Origin: Desulfobulbaceae bacterium
GTDB lineage: Bacteria; Desulfobacterota; Desulfobulbia; Desulfobulbales; Desulfocapsaceae
Reading direction: 5' to 3'
DNA: 64,000 nt
Assembly (NCBI GenBank): GCA_026988015.1
Contig: JALSMA010000016.1
Coordinates: 1-64,000 of the forward strand
Below, piece by piece: positions 23,990-35,332 of this stretch. Made by a program: the position numbers and the translations under genes. Below the pieces are notes generated by a model. It was given only the letters and a program-made list of their open reading frames with translations. It did no database searches and had not been told where the DNA came from. The first letter of the stretch is position 1. Each line of letters starts with the position of its first letter.

Positions 23990-25374
23990 ATCTGCTGTTT
24001 TTCCAGAAGAAGTTCAACCAATACCTCTCCAGCGCGTACAATATTTCCAGCACCAAGAGTCAAAACCAGATCACCTTCTCTCAACTCGGGTAAAAGTGCT
24101 TCAGCAAGACCTTCGACCCGTGAAGCAAATTTGGTTTTTCGCTGACCATGCTTCTTTACTTCATCAAGCAGGATTTCACCTGAAATATTTGGATCAAGAG
24201 GTTCACTTGCCGCATAAATTTCTGTCATCACCAGGTAATCAGCCTGATGAAAACAGGTCCTGAACTCTTCAAGCAGAGCCAGAGTTCTGCTGTAGCGATG
24301 GGGCTGAAAAAGCACCACCAATCGTTTTTCAGGCCAGCCTTCTTTAATGGCTGCCAGTGTTGCCCGGATCTCTGTGGGATGATGACCGTAGTCATCGATA
24401 ACAGTAACACCCTGTCCCTCGCCCTTGAGCTGCATCCTGCGCTGCACCCCCTGGAAACCTGCCAGCGCAGTACTTATGGTTTCAAAGGGTATCTCCAACT
24501 CCAACCCCACGGATATTGCTGCCAATGCATTATAAACATTATGTTTTCCTGCAAGGGCCAGGTCAATGCGCCCCAATTTTCTACCGCGGTTAACGACATC
24601 AAACTTCACCCGCCCACTCACCGCCTCGATCTGTTCTGCTGCGAGATCGGCCTGTGCTGTAAAACCATAGGTCAGTTTACGTTTCTTTATTCGTGGCAAA
24701 ATGTCTGCCACATTAGGATCATCAAGACAGATGATAACCGCACCGTAAAATGGAATTTTATCAATAAATTCTAAAAATGTATTTTTGATATGTTCTATAT
24801 CATCATAATGATCCATATGTTCCAGATCAATATTTGTAACCACCTCAAGCACAGGAGCAAGCTTCAGAAAGGACCCATCACTCTCATCAGCTTCTGCAAC
24901 AAGAAACTCACCTTCTCCAAGCTTTGCATTTCCACCAAGACTATCTACCTTCCCACCGACCACAATGGTGGGATCGAGCCCAGCTACATGCATCATCCAG
25001 CTGACCATGGATGTTGTGGATGTTTTGCCATGGCTGCCAGCGATTGCAATACCAAATTTCTTCAACCGCATAAGTTCAGCCAACATCTCCGCCCGCTGAA
25101 TCACCGGAATTTCTGCAGCAAGAGCTGTAACTACTTCTGGGTTATCGTCACGTATAGCAGATGACGTGACCACAACATCCGCTCCTTTCACCCAGCGCCC
25201 GTCATGCCCTTTGTGAATAAGACCACCGAGAGCCTGCAGGTTTCTTGTTATGGCTGAATCACCAAGATCCGAACCGGACACTTCATAGCCAAGGTTGAGA
25301 AGAAGCTCAGCAATGCCACTCATTCCAATGCCGCCTATTCCAACAAAATGTATTTTCTTTGTTTTATTATACAT
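23986..25374 (-). CDS. murC: UDP-N-acetylmuramate-L-alanine ligase
   Basis: 462 residues, the ATP-dependent ligase that adds L-alanine to UDP-MurNAc. The N-terminus IHFVGIGGIGMSGIAELL is the MurC signature; the P-loop is GSHGKTSTTSM near 110, followed by EADESDGSF and the C-terminal DDYGHHPTEI. The ATG at 25374, with GGGGA just upstream, overlaps the end of murG; the frame opens ten codons earlier. Confidence 0.95.
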   Translation of the reverse strand: MYNKTKKIHFVGIGGIGMSGIAELLLNLGYEVSGSDLGDSAITRNLQALGGLIHKGHDGRWVKGADVVVTSSAIRDDNPEVVTALAAEIPVIQRAEMLAELMRLKKFGIAIAGSHGKTSTTSMVSWMMHVAGLDPTIVVGGKVDSLGGNAKLGEGEFLVAEADESDGSFLKLAPVLEVVTNIDLEHMDHYDDIEHIKNTFLEFIDKIPFYGAVIICLDDPNVADILPRIKKRKLTYGFTAQADLAAEQIEAVSGRVKFDVVNRGRKLGRIDLALAGKHNVYNALAAISVGLELEIPFETISTALAGFQGVQRRMQLKGEGQGVTVIDDYGHHPTEIRATLAAIKEGWPEKRLVVLFQPHRYSRTLALLEEFRTCFHQADYLVMTEIYAASEPLDPNISGEILLDEVKKHGQRKTKFASRVEGLAEALLPELREGDLVLTLGAGNIVRAGEVLVELLLEKQQI

Positions 25375-26497
25375 TGTTTCCCCGGCCCCTATTTCCATTT
25401 TCAAATGGGTAATTCATTAGACGAAGACACTCATCAACAATTCGTTCAGCAGCCTGTGGAAATGCTCTCTTTCGCATGGACTCAGCCATTTCCTCAAGCT
25501 GAGATGTGTTGGATAGCAGTTCTGTGATCTGTTCCGCAAGAATCTCAACGGTGAGATCCTTTTCCACAAACATCAGGGCTCCTCCACCTTCCACATAATA
25601 TTGAGCATTTTGCTCCTGATGGTTATCAGCAGCATGTGGATACGGAATAAGGATAGCTGGCTTTCCAAGGACAGCCAGCTCTGCAAGGGTTGTTGCTCCT
25701 GCCCGTGATACCAGCAGATCAGCTTCTCGATAAACAGATGCCATATCATTGAAAAATGCGACAACTGTGGCATCAATCTTGTGCTCTCGATAGACGGCCT
25801 TCACTTCTTCCAGATCAGCTTCCCCAGTCTGATGGATTACCTTAACTCCAGCAAGGGATGTTTCACATCCTGCAAAGACCCCACTCACCAATTGATTAAT
25901 CCGGTGCGCCCCAAGACTTCCACCCAGTACCAGCAACGTAGGCTGAGCCCCCAGTTCTTTATTTTTTTCAGAAAGCTTGAGGATGGCCTGCCGAACTGGA
26001 TTTCCGGTGAGGACAGTTTTTTTCCTATCAAACCACCTTTCACTTCCCGGTAAAGAGATACAGATTCTGCTCACCAGACGTGACAGCTTTCTGTTAGCAA
26101 GGCCGGGAATTGAGTTCTGTTCATGGATAAGGGTTGGGCGCCCAAGGAGCCTGGCCGCTGCAACCACAGGCCCTGTCACATACCCCCCGACGCCAACAAC
26201 CAGATCCGGCTTAAAGCGAAGAATCTGATACATTGCTTGAAAACAGGACAACGGCAGCACCAGCACACCCTGAAGCATACTTAGAAAGTTTTTACCCTTC
26301 AATCCTCTGGAGTTTATGGAACAAGTGGCATAGCCGTACTGTTTCAGGCTACTCTTGTCCATCTTACGCTTTGTCCCCACAAAGAGAATCTCACTTCCGG
26401 GGAGTCTTCGACATATTGCCTCTGCAGTGGCAATGGCGGGAAACAGATGCCCACCCGTCCCTCCTCCTGTAAACATGAGTCGCACTGCCCTGCTCAT
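25367..26497 (-). CDS. murG: UDP-GlcNAc:undecaprenyl-PP-MurNAc-pentapeptide GlcNAc transferase
   Basis: 376 residues. MurG makes lipid II from lipid I on the inner membrane face. The GT-B fold is clear: FTGGGTGGHLFPAIA at the N-terminus, GVGGYVTGPVV near 90, HEQNSIPGLANR near 115, and the donor-site segment SRAGATTLAELAVLGKPAILIPYPHAADNHQ near 270-300 (quoted here only as landmarks). The ATG was set at 26497 because it overlaps the murD stop as ATGA. This direct murD-murG junction leaves no room for ftsW. Confidence 0.95.
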   Translation of the reverse strand: MSRAVRLMFTGGGTGGHLFPAIATAEAICRRLPGSEILFVGTKRKMDKSSLKQYGYATCSINSRGLKGKNFLSMLQGVLVLPLSCFQAMYQILRFKPDLVVGVGGYVTGPVVAAARLLGRPTLIHEQNSIPGLANRKLSRLVSRICISLPGSERWFDRKKTVLTGNPVRQAILKLSEKNKELGAQPTLLVLGGSLGAHRINQLVSGVFAGCETSLAGVKVIHQTGEADLEEVKAVYREHKIDATVVAFFNDMASVYREADLLVSRAGATTLAELAVLGKPAILIPYPHAADNHQEQNAQYYVEGGGALMFVEKDLTVEILAEQITELLSNTSQLEEMAESMRKRAFPQAAERIVDECLRLMNYPFENGNRGRGNNV

Positions 26498-27885
26498 GAA
26501 ATTGCCCCCAATTCCTTCCTGTCCTGCAACCCGCACACCGCAGCCGTAAATACATCACCACGTTGACCATAATCACCAAACATGTCAAAACTTGCGCAGG
26601 CTGGGGCCAGAAGAACCGTGTCTCCACTACTGGCACACCGTGCGGCCATAACAACTGCATCATCCATTGTTCCTGCAAACTCTATATCAACGATATTCTC
26701 CATAACATCGGCTATGTTCCGAGCGGCCTCACCTATCAGGATCAGTTTTTTTACTTTTTCCCGAACCGGTTCTTTCAGTACAGCATATTCCTCACCCTTA
26801 TCACGCCCACCCGCAATAAGAATAACATTTCCAGAGAATGAGGCGAGGGCACTGCATACAGCACCGGTATTAGTCGCCTTTGAATCATTGTAATAATCCA
26901 CACCCTCTGACGTTTTGATATATTGGAGACGATGTTTTTCCGGAACAAAACTCTCAAGCCCTTGCTGAATAGCATCGTCATCACATCCGGACAGAAAAGC
27001 AGCAAGTGATGCTGCGCTGGCATTGAGAAGACCAGTATGTGACTCCAGGGCAGTACCAGTAATGCTCACTGCTACAGTTACTCCAGCATGGTTGATTGTG
27101 ATTTCAGTACCTTCCACCACCGTAGCGCACCCACTTCCTACCCCACCAAAGCAGAGAACCTCCCGATCACCGGGCAATGACTTAACCTGCTGGCAAAATG
27201 AATCTTCTCCACTGATAATTGCGACATCACCTACTTTCTGATGCCGGAAAAGCCGCATTTTTGCAGCAATATATGCACCCATGGTCTTGTGACGATCCAG
27301 ATGATCCGGAGTAATATTTAACAATATCCCAATATCAGGACGAAAGGTACCTGCTGATTCCAGCTGGAAGCTGGACAGCTCAAGTACCAGGAACCCCACT
27401 CTCTCACTCCGCATGAGATAATCCAACACCGGAGTTCCAATGTTTCCACCCACAAAAACCTTTTTCCCGGAAGCACGGAGTAACTCAGCGATCAGCGCTG
27501 TCACCGTGGTCTTCCCATTGGTACCTGTTACAGCAATCACCGTCTCAGTTAGATATGGAGCAGCCAGTGCCAATTCGCCAAGGATCGGTATATCCCTCTC
27601 CCGCACCTCTGATAGAATTGGCAGATCTTTTGGCACTCCTGGGCTGATGGCGATAAAGTCAGCATGAAGTATAGCTCCTCGCCCCTCTGCAGGAGTCATA
27701 AAAGATACCCTGTTCTGGGTAAGATAGGTCCGTTCTTCACTTGAAAGATCTGTGAAATCACGATTATCAACCACCGCCACCAAAGCCTTCTTACTGAGCA
27801 GAAATTCCACCATAGCACGGCCGGAAATTCCCATCCCTAAAACAACTGCCCGAAGACCGGGCTCTATTTTTTTGTTCCATTCCAT
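26494..27885 (-). CDS. murD: UDP-N-acetylmuramoylalanine-D-glutamate ligase
   Basis: 463 residues. Adds D-glutamate to UDP-MurNAc-L-Ala. VVLGMGISGRAMVEFL marks the N-terminal Rossmann domain, VTGTNGKTTVTAL the P-loop near 115, ITPDHLDRHKTM and NDSKATNTGAVCSAL the central domain, and LLAPACASFDMFGDYGQRG the C-terminal signature. The ATG at 27885 forms TGATG with the mraY stop; the frame opens 19 codons earlier. Its stop overlaps murG. Confidence 0.95.
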   Translation of the reverse strand: MEWNKKIEPGLRAVVLGMGISGRAMVEFLLSKKALVAVVDNRDFTDLSSEERTYLTQNRVSFMTPAEGRGAILHADFIAISPGVPKDLPILSEVRERDIPILGELALAAPYLTETVIAVTGTNGKTTVTALIAELLRASGKKVFVGGNIGTPVLDYLMRSERVGFLVLELSSFQLESAGTFRPDIGILLNITPDHLDRHKTMGAYIAAKMRLFRHQKVGDVAIISGEDSFCQQVKSLPGDREVLCFGGVGSGCATVVEGTEITINHAGVTVAVSITGTALESHTGLLNASAASLAAFLSGCDDDAIQQGLESFVPEKHRLQYIKTSEGVDYYNDSKATNTGAVCSALASFSGNVILIAGGRDKGEEYAVLKEPVREKVKKLILIGEAARNIADVMENIVDIEFAGTMDDAVVMAARCASSGDTVLLAPACASFDMFGDYGQRGDVFTAAVCGLQDRKELGAIS

Positions 27886-28964
27886 CAGCGCAATTTCAGA
27901 GTTGCTATGGCAAAAAGGCCAAGAATAATAGAAACGATCCAAAATCTGACAACCACCTTCGGCTCATGCCAGCCTTTTTTCTCAAAGTGATGGTGAAAAG
28001 GCGCCATGAGGAATATCCGTTTTCCATGGGTAATTTTAAAATATCCTACTTGGAGAATCACCGAAAGTGCCTCCATTACAAATATTCCACCCACAATGGC
28101 TAGAAGAATTTCCTGCTTGATTATGATTGCGACACCGCCAAGGGCACCACCAAGGGCAAGAGACCCCACATCACCCATGAATATCTGGGCAGGGTAGGCA
28201 TTAAACCAGAGAAAACCGAGACAGGCACCCACCATGGCACCACAAAATACTGCAAGCTCACCGGCCCCCTGAACATAAGGAATCTGTAGATACTCAGCCA
28301 GCACTGCATGACCCGCCAGATATGAAAAAACAAGATACACCGATGCCGAAATGACGGTGGGGCCAGCCGCAAGACCATCCAAGCCATCGGTAAGATTCAC
28401 TGCATTTGAAGAACCAACTATTACAAAGATTGCAAATATTACGTAAAACCAAGAAAGGTCCGGCTGGATATTTTTAAAAAACGGAACACTGAGCTGCCCG
28501 TCATAACCTGGATACAAAAGGACAAAGAGCCCCACCACAGAGGCACCAAATATCTGGAGAAAGAGTTTACCACGAGCGCTGAGACCAGCGCTTGTCATTT
28601 TTTTTATCTTCTGGAAATCATCAATTCCACCAATAAAGCCAAAAAAAAGGAGCACAAAAAGCAGCAACCAGACCAGAGGATTGTCCAGCCGTGCCCACAA
28701 CAGCGTTGAGAGGCTGATGGATGAGAGGATAAGCACTCCGCCCATTGTGGGGACTCCCTGCTTGGCAAGATGAGTCTCCGGTCCGTCATCACGTACCACC
28801 TGCCCGATCTGATGCTGCTTCAGCTTACGAATAAACCACGGCCCTATAATCAGCATGATGAGAAAAGCAGTCACCGCTCCCCCAATGGAACGTACTGTAA
28901 TGTATCGAAAAACATTAAAAGCACTAATACTGTTATGCAGTGGATAAAGAAGATGATAGAGCAT
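27885..28964 (-). CDS. mraY: Phospho-N-acetylmuramoyl-pentapeptide transferase
   Basis: 359 residues with ten membrane segments. Transfers phospho-MurNAc-pentapeptide to undecaprenyl phosphate, giving lipid I. Family motifs: [19 protein letters not shown] near 40-58, [15 protein letters not shown] near 185 with the catalytic aspartates, [12 protein letters not shown] near 255, and [19 protein letters not shown] near 315. It begins two bases after the murE-murF stop (GGGGAACAATAAATG). Confidence 0.96.
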
Positions 28965-31900
28965 TTATTGTTCCCCGATAAAACGTTCAACAAGACTTTC
29001 CAAGTGCATGCCACGCGAGCCCTTCACCAAAATATAACTTCCCGACTGAATCTCACCTCGTCCAGACATTTCTTTTAACCAGCACAGACATTCTTCCTGT
29101 TCTTTGAAAATCTTAACTCGTTCCTTTTTCATTCCCTGTTTAAGTGCACCGGAAGCTGTGCAAGAGGCAAACTCACCAAGTACTGCCAGATAATCAATAC
29201 CGCATTCGGTAACATATGCACCTATTTTATTATGCAAAATATCACTTTCAGAACCGAGCTCCAGCATATCCCCCAACACTGCGATTCGACTGGAGTTGCC
29301 GAGATCCCTCAGAGTTGCGATACCTGCCTTCATGGATTCAGGATTTGCATTATAGGTGTCGTTTATTAAACGAGAGCCCCCTGGGCCTGAAAGAATCTCC
29401 ATCCGACGATCTTCGGGCCTGAATGCCATTAGTCCCCTTGCAACTGTCTCAATTTCAATGCCTGCAGCGACCCCAATGGCTGCAGCTGCCAAGGCATTTG
29501 AAATATTATGGCGGCCTGGAACCTGTAGCACAATAGCTGCTTTTTTCTCATACACATGAAGGATAAACTCAACGTTTTCCTCACCACCAGACGTTGTTTT
29601 AGGAACTGAATACACTTCAGGTACGGCGGAATCCCCACCATTTAAGCCGAAAAAGATCTTTTTCTGATCACAAGTTTTTGCAATTTCAAGCACCCTCGCA
29701 TCGTCACTATTTACAACCAGGGTGGTTCCCCGTCCACACCCCTGAAAAAGCTCAGCTTTTGCCCTGGCAACTCCCTCGATATCACCTAAGCCCTGGAGGT
29801 GGGCTCCATGGACATTTACAATACAGGCAATATCGGGATCAGCAATCGCTGTAAGTCTTGCTATTTCACCCGGCACATTCATTCCCATTTCAAGAATCGC
29901 TGCAGAGTGCCTTGGTGACAGGGGAAGCAATGACAAAGGAAGGCCAATAAGGTTGTTAAAATTTCCTTTTGTTTTAAGTACTCTTCCCTGTGCAACATCA
30001 GGGCCATCAGGCCACTGTTCCCTGAATATTGAGGCGCACATCTCCTTGACCGTTGTTTTACCACTACTGCCTGTAACAGCAGCAACACGTGGTGAGCTCA
30101 TCTCTTTAATAACAGCGCGCCTGTAACCCGCAAGATCCCCCAGTGCCTTTTCAGTATCCTTAACCAGCAACACCGGAATCGGGAAGGCACCATCGGGCGC
30201 ATCTTCAAGAACAAGACAGGCAGCACCGGCAGCTACAACCTGAGAAACATACTGATGGCCATCAAAGCGATCGCCTTTGAGAGCAACAAAGATATCACCC
30301 GCCTCAATTGTCCGCGAATCTGTGTTGATGGCACCTGATACTCTTTGCTGTTTCGACTCGCACTGACCAATAAACTCTCCTCCAGTGGCACGTATCAGGG
30401 AGTCAACGTTCCAGTTACAAAGTGCCTCCGCTGCTTCAAGGCTATCGTCAAAAAACTTTTTGCCGTTATTGCCCAACTGATAATTTTCGTGTCCTTTTCC
30501 TGCAACCAGAACGATATCATCCCCGGTTGCCGCCAGTATTGCAGCTGTTATAGCCCGGTTCCGATCAGGTATCACAACATACCCGGTTTCAGATTCAGCC
30601 TTTGAGTCGAGCCAGCCCACGGGATGCTGCCTGCTGCTCATGCCCCTTTCAATGTCCCGAAGGATACTATCCGGATCCTCACTTCGCGGGTTGTCACTTG
30701 TAAGAACAACAACATCTGAATATTTTTCAGCAATTCCCGCCATCAAGGGTCGTTTTCCTGCATCCCTGTCTCCACCACACCCAAAAACGGTGTACAGCGT
30801 GCTATGGGGAAGCTGTTTCACAGAACGAAGCACCTGCTCAAGGGCATCAGGGGTGTGGGCATAATCCACAAAGACAGCAGGTCTAAAGGATATTTCATTC
30901 CGAGCCACTCGCACCTGTTCCATGCGCCCTGGTGCTCCTGTTGCAGTTTTCAAAGCATCACATATTATAGTGGTTGCAATGCCTGTACACCTGGCCATCG
31001 CAAATGCTGTCTGTAAATTTGCGACATTAAACTCCCCGATCAGAGGCGACTCAAGAATGCACTCCCCCTCCACCGTGTGAAGCCGGACTTTGGTTCTTCG
31101 CTGCTCTGTTACCACCGAGAGAGGATAGATATCACTCCGAGACAGCTCACCGCAACTCAACACTTCAACTCCATTCTGGCGACAATACCGCAACAACTTT
31201 TCACTCCAGATCCTCTCTTCTGCCGAAAAACTGACAACTGCCCATCCATGAGGACGCATATGATTGCTAAAGAGAAGTTTTTTGGCACAGAAATAACTCT
31301 CCATATCGAGGTGATAATCAAGATGATCACGGCTGAGATTTGTAAAAGCCGCCACATCAAATGTAATTCCTCCGATGCGGTTTTGCTCAAGTCCGTGCGA
31401 AGATATCTCCATCACAATGGAATCGACCCCACTGTCTGCCATCAGACGCAGAGTCTGCTGGAGAAGAAAGGGTTCCGGGGTCGTAAAAGCAGATGGAAGT
31501 TGAATACAATTCCCTTCAGCATCAAAATAACGATAATTAATAGTTCCGAGGACACCAGGTTGCTTTCCAGCACCAAGCAATACCGACTCAAGGAGATAAC
31601 TGACACTGGTCTTGCCATTTGTTCCAGTGACCCCAAACATTGTCATCACCTGTGACGGATATGAGAAGAGCATCGCAGCCAGTTCGGCGTAAGTCCACCT
31701 GGTATTGGCAGCCACAAGAATACAAATATCATCTTCGGGAATGTCAACCTGCGTTATCCTTCCCTCCTCAACAAGAATTGCGGCACAGCCAGCTGCCCTG
31801 GCCTGGGTGACAAAATCATGGCCATCACTTGTTGTTCCTGAAATTGCAATAAAGAGAGAGCCGGGAACGACTTTACGGGAATCAACGGTTACCCTGTTGA

Positions 31901-32054
31901 AAGAACAGGTGGACGCATCTCCCGACAACAGGGAGATCCCCGGAATAGCAGCAATGATGGCTGCAACATCAATGCTGGCGGAAGAACACACAACAGTTCC
32001 GGGATGGTCACATATCCAGTTATTGCCTGTGTGAGTTTCCAGCTTTGCCGCCAT
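28965..32054 (-). CDS. murE-murF: Fused MurE-MurF: meso-DAP-adding and D-Ala-D-Ala-adding ligase
   Basis: One chain of about 1029 residues holds two complete Mur ligases. MurE part (about 1-550): VTVDSRKVVPGSLF, P-loop GTNGKT at 144-149, SSHGLEQNR, and DNPR at 454-457, the motif that marks meso-diaminopimelate specificity, then GKGHENYQ. MurF part (from about 553): NTDSRTIEAGDIFVAL, P-loop GSSGKT at 662-667, KGNFNNLIGLPL, EMGMNVPGEI, NDTYNANPESM and KGSRGMHLE near the end. No stop, frameshift or long linker separates them. Start: the ATG at 32054 has the purine-rich AGGGAAGAAG in front; an in-frame ATG at 32075 without a Shine-Dalgarno is the alternative. The gene lies between the ftsI-like gene and mraY, the normal murE-murF position. 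Confidence 0.94.
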   Translation of the reverse strand: MAAKLETHTGNNWICDHPGTVVCSSASIDVAAIIAAIPGISLLSGDASTCSFNRVTVDSRKVVPGSLFIAISGTTSDGHDFVTQARAAGCAAILVEEGRITQVDIPEDDICILVAANTRWTYAELAAMLFSYPSQVMTMFGVTGTNGKTSVSYLLESVLLGAGKQPGVLGTINYRYFDAEGNCIQLPSAFTTPEPFLLQQTLRLMADSGVDSIVMEISSHGLEQNRIGGITFDVAAFTNLSRDHLDYHLDMESYFCAKKLLFSNHMRPHGWAVVSFSAEERIWSEKLLRYCRQNGVEVLSCGELSRSDIYPLSVVTEQRRTKVRLHTVEGECILESPLIGEFNVANLQTAFAMARCTGIATTIICDALKTATGAPGRMEQVRVARNEISFRPAVFVDYAHTPDALEQVLRSVKQLPHSTLYTVFGCGGDRDAGKRPLMAGIAEKYSDVVVLTSDNPRSEDPDSILRDIERGMSSRQHPVGWLDSKAESETGYVVIPDRNRAITAAILAATGDDIVLVAGKGHENYQLGNNGKKFFDDSLEAAEALCNWNVDSLIRATGGEFIGQCESKQQRVSGAINTDSRTIEAGDIFVALKGDRFDGHQYVSQVVAAGAACLVLEDAPDGAFPIPVLLVKDTEKALGDLAGYRRAVIKEMSSPRVAAVTGSSGKTTVKEMCASIFREQWPDGPDVAQGRVLKTKGNFNNLIGLPLSLLPLSPRHSAAILEMGMNVPGEIARLTAIADPDIACIVNVHGAHLQGLGDIEGVARAKAELFQGCGRGTTLVVNSDDARVLEIAKTCDQKKIFFGLNGGDSAVPEVYSVPKTTSGGEENVEFILHVYEKKAAIVLQVPGRHNISNALAAAAIGVAAGIEIETVARGLMAFRPEDRRMEILSGPGGSRLINDTYNANPESMKAGIATLRDLGNSSRIAVLGDMLELGSESDILHNKIGAYVTECGIDYLAVLGEFASCTASGALKQGMKKERVKIFKEQEECLCWLKEMSGRGEIQSGSYILVKGSRGMHLESLVERFIGEQ

Positions 32055-32096
32055 CTTCTTCCCTGTTACAGCCATTGTATCTTAAAACCGACAGTT

Positions 32097-34004
32097 TTAT
32101 TTCGGCTTTGCTTCCCTTGTCTGTAAACTTTTTATCTGCATCACATTTTCCGGTGTCTTATCAGTCACAAGGGTCAAGACACATACATCCCCTTTTTTAA
32201 TTGCTTTTCCGGCCTCAAGGCTCTGAGACACAATCCGCCCCGTCCCTCTGACCGTCACCTCAACTTCCGCCCCTTGCAGGAGACGTAAGCCCCTTCTCAA
32301 ACTGAACCCGGTGAGATCTGGCATTTCCATAACCTGATCTTCCAACATCCTGTTCAGGTGGTCAGATCTGACAGTCCCCCCAGTCGTATCGCCTTGGAAA
32401 TTTTGATCCACGCCTTTCTTCATTTCAACCATATCAGCGATATTCCAGTAGACCTGCTGCAGTGCAACCATGGAAGGAATCACCTCATCAATGCCCTGAC
32501 ATAATGCTTTAGCGCCAGCGTCCCATTCCGGTGATATCTGGAGCTCTTCGTCCCTCGCGACGACAAAAAGTATCATTTCAGGATTTCTGGCAGGAATTAC
32601 TATAATGGCCATTCGATCCCGAACATAGCTTCCGCCACGAGCATTGGGAACAAGCGACACTGTCTCGCCACAAAGAGAGGATGAACCAAGTACCCCTGGC
32701 CGCCCTTGAACCACAAGTAAGGCCTGCAATTCTTCTGAAACCAGAAAGGGGAAGACATTCTGTCCCTGTGAGTTTCCTCGAAAGGCATCATAGAAATACT
32801 CCTTTTGGCCGGGTCGTTCCATAATTTTATCAAGAATATGGGGTTGTATTTTCTTCCCACCATTCAACAGGTGTGCCATCCCCAATAAAACTTTCAACGG
32901 TTTTGCTGTTGCCGGGATGGCACCGAAATCCAGCCCTGGCCGAGTTTTTTCAAACCTGGGAGTATCTGTCTGGAGTTTTTTCCCCCCCGAAAAATCAACA
33001 TTCATTTCCGTGGTCAACTGCAGACGTTCAAAAAGGCGTAACTGACTGCCAAGATCTTTTTTTGCAGATACCAGACTCCAGGGATACACCTGCGTTCCCT
33101 GCTCCCACCCGCTCTGCAAAAGAGCAGCATCTTGATAAAAGCGACGAATCTCATCAGGAATCACCATCGGGGTGAGAAACAGATTATCCAGAACCCCCTC
33201 CCGGCCCTGCCAGATCTTATTCGGGTTGTAGGTTGGATAACTAGCCCCTGCAACAATTCGCCCCTGATCGGTATCAAGAAGCAGAGAACTGATACGCTCC
33301 CTGCCATTTTTTTTTGCAAGCCCCCGCATATACTTCTCAAGGACAGCCTGGATCTTCATGTCCAAAGTCAGAACCAGATCATGTCCACGGCCCGCTGTAT
33401 AAGTGAGACCTTTCATGTCTATGGCAGGAAAGTCTTCCTGCCGCGCCCTGTCCTGACTCAAAAGCCGGTTATAATAATGCTCAACCCCGGCAAGTCCAAG
33501 ATTTTTTTCTGAGTACCCTATCAGCTGTGATGCATATTCCTGTTGCGGGTAAGCTCTTGCCACTTCTCTATGCAGATAGACTCCTGGAAGATTTAAACGG
33601 ATTACTGCATCCTCGTCCTCCTGACCAATCTCTCTCTGCAACCAGACAAGTTGTGAATCGCGTTCGATTCTAGAGATAATCTCAGATTCGGTTAAACCGA
33701 GTATTTCCGAAAGCTTTCCAGCGGTCTCTGCTATATTTATAACTTCCCTTGGCCGAACATACAGAGACACTCGTTCAAGTGTCCGAGCAAGTTCCTTAAA
33801 ATTACGATCATAAATCGTACCACGGACATTGTCTGCAACCTCACTCTCTGCTGGAAATGTCTCCTTCCAAATATCAACAATGTTTGCCAATTGTTCTTTA
33901 TAGAGAGCTCCAACGCTTGCTGTCGCTACAAGGATCAATATCAGAAAAAACCAGAGCTTTCGCCTTCCGGTATCTGTTGTTCTAAGACGAGATCTCCTGG
34001 CCAT
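32097..34004 (-). CDS. FtsI-like class B penicillin-binding protein homologue lacking catalytic motifs, with C-terminal PASTA domain
   Basis: 635 residues in the ftsI slot. One membrane anchor (about 17-35), a PBP dimerisation/pedestal region (NVRGTIYDRNFKELARTLERVSLYV; AYPQQEYASQLIGY; GLAGVEHYYNRLL), a transpeptidase-like fold (LTLDMKIQAVLEKYM; GRIVAGASYPTYNPN; MAHLLNGGKKIQPHIL) and one PASTA repeat near 565-620 (MPDLTGFSLRRGLRLLQGAE). The active-site motifs are absent. Where STFK should be, the best alignments give EIRR (285-288) or TQVY (304-307); the SxN region is shortened by about 50 residues; the KTG position reads CGETVS (445-450). A chance SAKK at 313-316 lies in the wrong context. 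No stop or frameshift breaks the frame. I infer a non-catalytic scaffold in the divisome. Confidence 0.85.
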   Translation of the reverse strand: MARRSRLRTTDTGRRKLWFFLILILVATASVGALYKEQLANIVDIWKETFPAESEVADNVRGTIYDRNFKELARTLERVSLYVRPREVINIAETAGKLSEILGLTESEIISRIERDSQLVWLQREIGQEDEDAVIRLNLPGVYLHREVARAYPQQEYASQLIGYSEKNLGLAGVEHYYNRLLSQDRARQEDFPAIDMKGLTYTAGRGHDLVLTLDMKIQAVLEKYMRGLAKKNGRERISSLLLDTDQGRIVAGASYPTYNPNKIWQGREGVLDNLFLTPMVIPDEIRRFYQDAALLQSGWEQGTQVYPWSLVSAKKDLGSQLRLFERLQLTTEMNVDFSGGKKLQTDTPRFEKTRPGLDFGAIPATAKPLKVLLGMAHLLNGGKKIQPHILDKIMERPGQKEYFYDAFRGNSQGQNVFPFLVSEELQALLVVQGRPGVLGSSSLCGETVSLVPNARGGSYVRDRMAIIVIPARNPEMILFVVARDEELQISPEWDAGAKALCQGIDEVIPSMVALQQVYWNIADMVEMKKGVDQNFQGDTTGGTVRSDHLNRMLEDQVMEMPDLTGFSLRRGLRLLQGAEVEVTVRGTGRIVSQSLEAGKAIKKGDVCVLTLVTDKTPENVMQIKSLQTREAKPK

Positions 34005-34044: not shown

Positions 34045-34416
34045 CTAGAAATTAGGATACTGGTCAGACGTTGGTCTATGAATTGCCAGCTCACTTGAAG
34101 CCATTGTCCCCACTACTTCCGAAGAAAAAAGCTGCGCTTTTCTGGCACGAAGCAGAATATTACTTCCAACCAGTTCCGCATGACTGGCTTCAATACCTGC
34201 AATCTCCGACGCAAGCTTCTCAGCTGAGCCATTCAGAAGGCTAAAGGTTACAACAACAAACAACACGGAAGCCAGTAAGACTTTGGACACACTATACCAG
34301 AGCTGTTTTCCACCAAGCAGGACCAAACTACGAGACCGCCTGCTACTAGCACAGGTTTGATAGCGAAAAGAATTTCTACGGGGAATTATTGTGTTAGCCG
34401 AAGGATTAATAATCAT
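34045..34416 (-). CDS. ftsL: FtsL-like divisome protein
   Basis: 123 residues in the usual position between rsmH and ftsI. A basic cytoplasmic tail of ~40 residues, one transmembrane helix near 46-64 (VLLASVLFVVVTFSLL), then a short heptad-like segment (AEKLASEIAGIEASHAELVGSNILLRARKAQL) expected to form the coiled coil with FtsB. Sequence similarity in FtsL is always low, so the name rests on topology and position. The ATG at 34416 follows AGGAAGAGGTG; upstream in-frame codons overlap rsmH and are rejected. Confidence 0.75.
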   Translation of the reverse strand: MIINPSANTIIPRRNSFRYQTCASSRRSRSLVLLGGKQLWYSVSKVLLASVLFVVVTFSLLNGSAEKLASEIAGIEASHAELVGSNILLRARKAQLFSSEVVGTMASSELAIHRPTSDQYPNF

Positions 34417-34432
34417 GGTTTCACCTCTTCCT

Positions 34433-35332
34433 TTATATCTTTTCAGCAACCCGCAAGCGGGCACTCCGTGACCTTCTATTGTTTTCCCTTTCTTCCGACC
34501 CTGCAACAATGGGTTTTTTGGTCAGGACTTTCAGTTCGTCATTATCACGAAACCTTCGTTTCACCATCCGATCTTCCAGAGAGTGAAAGGAGATGACACA
34601 AAACCTAGCTCCTGGTTTCAGATACCGAACGCCATCTTCCAAAATCCCAGCCAGATTTTCAAGCTCCGTGTTTACAGCTATCCGCAGGGCCTGAAAAACC
34701 CGTGTCGCGACATGAATTCTCTTTGGATGAAATGGCCTGGGCACTGCCCGTGCCACAAGATCCGCAAACTCTTTTGATGTAGTAACAGGTGACACGACAC
34801 GCTCCTTCACAACATACGATGCAATTCTTCGTGCCTGTTTTTCCTCACCATAGTAGAAAAAAATATCGGCGAGTTCCTCTTCTGTACAGTTGGCAAGAAT
34901 TGATGCTGCTGTGACCTCCCGTCTGATATCCATCCTCATGTCCAAAGGTTCTTCTCGCTGAAAGCTGAATCCACGTTCGCCCATATCAAGCTGCAGAGAA
35001 GAAAGACCTATGTCTATGAGGATACCATCAACCATGCCGACTCCAACTTCAGCCAGACCGACACCAATTTCAGAAAAATTCCTTCTCACTATGGTCAATC
35101 GGTCACCATAGGCCTTCAGTCGCTCTCGACTCTTGTCGATGGCCATTGCGTCCCAGTCAAAAGCTACAACACATCCACCGGGCGAACTCTTCTCCAGGAT
35201 GGCCTCGCTGTGACCGCCAAGCCCCAACGTACCATCCACATACACTCCACCACTGTGAGGAGCAAGAAATTCAAGGGTCTCAGTGGGTAAGACTGAACAA
35301 TGGATCTCTGCTGCAATCTGCTGACCGCCCAT
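34433..35332 (-). CDS. rsmH: 16S rRNA (cytosine-1402-N4)-methyltransferase
   Basis: 299 residues (formerly MraW). SAM-dependent methylation of C1402 in 16S rRNA. HCSVLPTETLEFL leads into the SAM loop VDGTLGLGGHSEAIL near 32; FDWDAMAIDKSRERL, DGILIDIGLSSLQLD, ERGFSFQREEPLDMRMD and PFHPKRIHVATRVFQALRI are family signatures, and FCVISFHSLEDRMVKRRF near 245 is the C-terminal one. It starts in a TGATG overlap with mraZ. Confidence 0.96.
   Translation of the reverse strand: MGGQQIAAEIHCSVLPTETLEFLAPHSGGVYVDGTLGLGGHSEAILEKSSPGGCVVAFDWDAMAIDKSRERLKAYGDRLTIVRRNFSEIGVGLAEVGVGMVDGILIDIGLSSLQLDMGERGFSFQREEPLDMRMDIRREVTAASILANCTEEELADIFFYYGEEKQARRIASYVVKERVVSPVTTSKEFADLVARAVPRPFHPKRIHVATRVFQALRIAVNTELENLAGILEDGVRYLKPGARFCVISFHSLEDRMVKRRFRDNDELKVLTKKPIVAGSEERENNRRSRSARLRVAEKI

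Follow-up and report, generated by a model that had tools for sequence, protein, structure and literature searches.

How does a bacterium build its division septum when the protein in the ftsI position of its dcw cluster seems unable to catalyze transpeptidation? This question is raised by a 64,000-nucleotide stretch of DNA from a Desulfobulbaceae bacterium (hereafter the window), in which the original prediction, made from the sequence alone, had proposed a non-catalytic class B penicillin-binding protein (PBP) at the ftsI locus. Before the work on C. difficile, synthesis of the septal wall was believed to depend universally on the FtsW-FtsI pair (PMC10693644).

The ftsI open reading frame (positions 32097-34004, minus strand) starts with ATG, is intact, and encodes 635 amino acids, in which Pfam, profile-profile comparison, and motif columns delineate a degenerate class B PBP homolog composed of an anchor, a PBP_dimer domain, a transpeptidase-like domain, and a PASTA domain. 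Residues 1-61 (33822-34004) form an N-terminal cytoplasmic stretch and the membrane anchor, visible as the hydrophobic segment WFFLILILVATASVGAL, and are followed by the PBP_dimer pedestal (residues 61-167, 33504-33824; Pfam, 42 bits), the transpeptidase-like domain (residues 206-500, 32505-33389; profile alignment and conservation), and the PASTA domain (residues 560-611, 32172-32327; Pfam, 27 bits), which is the best-conserved part of the family. The Pfam Transpeptidase model reaches 13 bits, below its cut-off of 22.1, and the best stretches of the NCBIfam SpoVD, PBP2, and FtsI models extend only to about residue 300. A phmmer search against the PDB matched residues 18-331 to Pseudomonas aeruginosa FtsI/PBP3 (E 1e-22), and a structure prediction based on an alignment of the window protein and one relative (L035) only gave a pLDDT of 29.5. 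The protein resembles FtsI/PBP3 in its place in the dcw order mraW-ftsL-ftsI-murE, its anchor and PBP_dimer pedestal, its full-length homology, and, as judged by profile comparison, its transpeptidase-like fold; PASTA is likewise found in many FtsI proteins of the phylum. On one side, ftsI adjoins a murE-murF fusion of 1036 amino acids (28965-32075, minus strand), assigned from the window reading frames and synteny; the same fusion occurs in most of the class loci read, whereas the two genes are apparently separate in genome G026 and several FtsW-bearing relatives. On the other side lies a small membrane protein of 154 amino acids (34045-34509, minus strand), named FtsL by position. It has no match to the Pfam FtsL model, and this may be the reason why ftsL has been reported as absent in Desulfobulbaceae.

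What sets this protein apart from FtsI/PBP3 is the loss of SxxK, SxN, and KTG, a deletion of about 35 residues around SxN, and the lack of an FtsW partner. The motifs were placed by hhalign alignment of two profiles, one built from 52 sequences of the class plus one allied family, the other from 23 active FtsI proteins of FtsW-bearing families in this phylum (probability 100, E 1.6e-96, 572 columns), the alignment running across the pedestal, the transpeptidase-like domain, and PASTA. DPGSTFKPF of active FtsI pairs without gaps with IPDEIRRFY of the window protein, which puts Glu285 at the nucleophilic serine and Arg288 at the lysine (E285-I-R-R288, 33141-33152, minus strand); of the two readings offered originally for SxxK, EIRR at 285-288 is therefore the right one, and TQVY at 304-307 is not. 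In the same profile alignment, the SSN column corresponds to G319-S320-Q321 (33042-33050, minus strand), with deletions on both sides. The predicted shortening of this segment is real, but its size had been put at about 50 residues; since the distance between the SxxK position and the conserved NGG is 97 residues in the window protein versus 131-133 in active FtsI, it amounts to about 35. In the MAFFT register, GKTG falls over G446-E447-T448-V449 (32658-32669, minus strand), so that KTG reads ETV; hhalign sets it a few residues further on, and the lysine and glycine are missing in both registers, as had been claimed. Alignment with active FtsI proteins thus confirms, as far as sequence comparison can, that the transpeptidase domain is devoid of its acylation machinery.

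The same condition extends across the class of the window genome (Desulfobulbia), which we take to include the cable bacteria. Orthologs were read at genus, family, and order level from 15 families, with BLAST-guided choice of reading frames, and in none of about 80 class orthologs were the three motifs in place. The seven catalytic columns (S, K, S, N, K, T, G) are filled in 30/30 outgroup FtsI proteins from FtsW-bearing families of the phylum, whereas in the class, tallied together with the allied family f26 (three genomes), they hold scattered residues, the serine column containing Glu in 24 sequences, Leu in 17, Gly in 12, and others in the remainder. Catalytic letters occur by chance in the SxxK columns (two serines and eight lysines), in no case with the motifs together, and where class FtsI proteins contain PGSxxK-like (two) or K[TS]G[TS]-like (four) matches, these are all out of register. 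In two single-contig genomes (G059 and G121) ftsI, and in a third (G033) rodA, appears split by a frameshift, which may be a long-read assembly error or a real break.

The partner polymerase is missing as well. In FtsW-bearing relatives the gene order is murD-ftsW-murG, with a SEDS gene between murD and murG in every such locus. In the window, murD (26494-27942, minus strand) overlaps murG (25367-26536, minus strand), both assigned from reading frames and synteny, which leaves no ftsW between them. In the window and nine of the ten class loci checked, murG comes next after murD, with no SEDS gene in between; the tenth (L204) has a rearranged cluster (mraY-murD-murG order), with murG outside the stretch read. 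The window's own genome, which is 99.8% complete, contains no second SEDS gene and no cognate FtsW, the only SEDS gene being rodA, located beside mrdA downstream of mreBCD. Two full-length SEDS genes were found in none of 145 class genomes, three of which had none detected, and the order sample agrees; genome G004, with 8% contamination, carries two, each next to a class B PBP. In the SEDS tree, class proteins group with RodA, and nine FtsW proteins form their own clade (support 1.0). The search of the own genome for another class B PBP with all motifs, proposed with the original prediction, returned MrdA of the mre operon and no second one, the only other PF00905 proteins being three class A PBPs, each of which carries SxxK and KTG; a plasmid search gave weak matches to ordinary PBPs only. 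A very long class A PBP of this genome (C42; L004, 106-3351; 1,082 amino acids as read, open frame 1,134) combines GT51, SxxK, and KTG with a transpeptidase domain that bears a large insertion, and is common in the class. This class A PBP of about 1,100 amino acids was rejected as the common replacement of FtsW-FtsI because it does not track FtsW loss, being absent from genome G009 and present in the FtsW-bearing G176 and G236.

Sequence comparison therefore shows, at its own level, FtsI orthology together with loss of the acylation machinery and of FtsW in the window lineage. On this basis we consider it probable that the window protein is a true FtsI ortholog turned into a non-catalytic divisome protein, with the septum being made by class A PBPs, possibly with RodA-PBP2. 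FtsW would have been lost first, leaving FtsI with no septal polymerase to serve, and for that reason its active site may then have decayed. The anchor, pedestal, and PASTA domain would have been retained for docking to further proteins of the divisome and for binding septal peptidoglycan; the gene in the ftsL position and FtsQ are still present in the window cluster. A role of FtsI as a PASTA-bearing divisome scaffold, with septal cross-linking by another protein, fits these data. Such a structural, catalysis-independent role has analogies among other class B PBPs, since Bacillus subtilis PBP2B supports division while catalytically dead (PMC5656894), and Staphylococcus aureus PBP1 has PASTA domains that bind peptidoglycan and are needed for septum progression (PMC9426605). 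Both cases concern laboratory mutants with FtsW, whereas the inactive state in the window lineage is natural and class-wide.

The closest counterpart is C. difficile, which divides with the class A PBP1 and uses RodA-PBP2 for elongation (PMC10693644; PMC12539705). Both organisms lack a functional FtsW/FtsI pair for vegetative division, possess class A PBPs (three here), which in the window lineage would likewise supply septal peptidoglycan, and encode RodA-PBP2 by the mre operon; this is the elongation pair in C. difficile and, next to mreBCD, the only active elongation-type SEDS-class B PBP pair in the window genome. They differ in that the dcw synthases of C. difficile are active and sporulation-specific, with the SEDS gene spoVE kept, whereas in the window lineage, which is Gram-negative, the dcw SEDS gene ftsW is deleted and the dcw class B PBP is inactive, without motifs.

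The strongest competing explanation makes RodA-PBP2 the main producer of septal peptidoglycan, serving both elongation and division, with inactive FtsI as the adaptor bringing it to the FtsZ ring. RodA-MrdA is indeed the sole remaining SEDS-class B PBP pair and occurs in nearly every class genome, and FtsI retains the pedestal, which in other bacteria contacts SEDS proteins and FtsQLB. The location of mrdA-rodA within the mreBCD operon, as expected for a dedicated elongation system, speaks against it, as does C. difficile, in which a similar inventory is divided between elongation by RodA-PBP2 and division by a class A PBP (PMC10693644). We therefore regard this explanation as possible but rather unlikely.

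That ftsI could instead be a functionless, decaying gene is suggested by the loss of the domain responsible for enzymatic activity and by the reduction of the gene to a stub in some related families. However, almost all of the roughly 80 genomes have an open frame, and dN/dS against the closest relative is about 0.12 (0.080/0.680), and 0.10 (0.074/0.723) for the transpeptidase-like part; dS is saturated in deeper pairs, so a value is given for this closest pair only. Together with the full-length homology, these values bear out the claim of an intact 635-codon protein under selection, and class-wide the gene appears, from its sequences, to be retained under purifying selection. PBP_dimer was detected in 52/52 members of the degenerate profile and PASTA in 51/52, versus 15/23 active FtsI proteins for PASTA. 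Mean conservation in degenerate FtsI is 0.56 for PASTA, 0.49 for the pedestal, and 0.36 for the transpeptidase-like domain, versus 0.35, 0.52, and 0.61, respectively, in active FtsI, values showing that conservation has moved from the transpeptidase domain to the pedestal and PASTA. With PASTA better conserved than in active FtsI, we find decay of a functionless gene highly improbable.

Retention of catalysis through a different nucleophile deserves equally little credence. Most of the fold is preserved according to the profile match, but residues 206-500 contain no serine, cysteine, or lysine conserved in at least 60% of the set, which makes a hidden alternative active site unlikely; only T214, D216, E224, D338, and H390 pass this threshold (numbering with one residue ahead of Met1), and T214 and D216 are equally conserved in active FtsI. 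A normal active site hidden by misalignment or sequencing error, for which SxxK-like stretches such as S313-A-K-K316 might be invoked, is refuted by the class-wide alignment and virtually inconceivable, because the same loss recurs in about 80 independently sequenced genomes and S313-A-K-K316, named at the outset as the stretch whose placement at the nucleophile would overturn the prediction, lies just ahead of the SxN position. Motif loss, purifying selection, FtsW loss, MrdA as the only other class B PBP, and class-wide conservation all support the proposal that the ftsI position holds a non-catalytic class B PBP; the absence of FtsW and the occurrence of degenerate FtsI throughout the class go beyond what had been proposed.

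The association of FtsW loss with FtsI decay recurs elsewhere in the phylum. Outside the order, at least two SEDS genes are present in 57 of 74 phylum genomes, and one in the remaining 17. Five of these 17 kept FtsW, as judged by synteny, and their dcw FtsI scores like the active ones; in the other 12 (families f26, f32, f35, f36, f52, f57, and f58), the SEDS gene has a PBP2-like neighbor, and no SEDS gene occurs in the dcw clusters that were read from these families. The ftsI slot holds a full-length protein without motifs in f26, a protein of 538 amino acids without a PASTA match in f58, and one of 440 amino acids in f36. In f35, which we take to be possibly Thermodesulfobacterium-like, a truncated FtsI-like frame of 340 amino acids (L238, 5153-6172) retains the dimer part and little of the transpeptidase, and murD abuts murG. 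In f32 and f57 the slot is occupied by proteins of 248-329 amino acids (L193, 5095-5895; L194, 5076-5819; L195, 4780-5766) that have a membrane anchor and a C-terminus resembling PASTA but lack a dimer domain; the f52 contig begins within murE, its ftsI lying outside the sequence covered. FtsW loss and FtsI decay coincide in all FtsW-less lineages with a readable ftsI slot. In f32 and f57, a protein of about 267 amino acids with many hydrophobic segments and no Pfam match fills the ftsW slot between murD and murG (L210, 13110-13910; L217, 12695-13501), and is perhaps a degenerate FtsW. The FtsW-less outgroup genome G234 encodes a degenerate FtsI without a PASTA match, indicating that PASTA is not required in every lineage.

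In a tree of MurB, MurC, MurG, and FtsA, f32 and f57 adjoin the FtsW-bearing f33 (support 91), and f35 adjoins the FtsW-bearing f43 (99), apart from the class (100). FtsW was probably lost independently several times; the concatenated dcw tree suggests at least three losses in the phylum, a count to be read as an estimate because the tree backbone is weak. Whether the class and several allied lineages, through separate losses, all divide without an FtsW-FtsI synthase, a class A PBP being brought to the septum by an FtsI that has become a PASTA scaffold sensing peptidoglycan, seems to us evenly poised.

The absence of ftsW from four Desulfobulbaceae genomes is already known from a survey of cable bacteria and Desulfobulbus, which treats FtsI as the active septal synthase and apparently does not mention active-site loss (PMC7873302). 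In the open-access literature, to which the search was confined, no account of a catalytically inactive FtsI from the class came to light. The assumption in work on cable bacteria that FtsI makes the septum would stand corrected. FtsW is gone from an entire Gram-negative class, with repeated separate losses in the phylum, and the active site of FtsI has disappeared while the FtsI protein has been kept. Degenerate FtsI constitutes a natural split of the structural from the enzymatic role of FtsI, and makes the needs of septal synthesis beyond the SEDS-class B PBP pair testable in cultivable bacteria that are not pathogens. With the catalytic residues of FtsI lost and FtsW gone, cells of this class would have to build their division wall by means of other enzymes.
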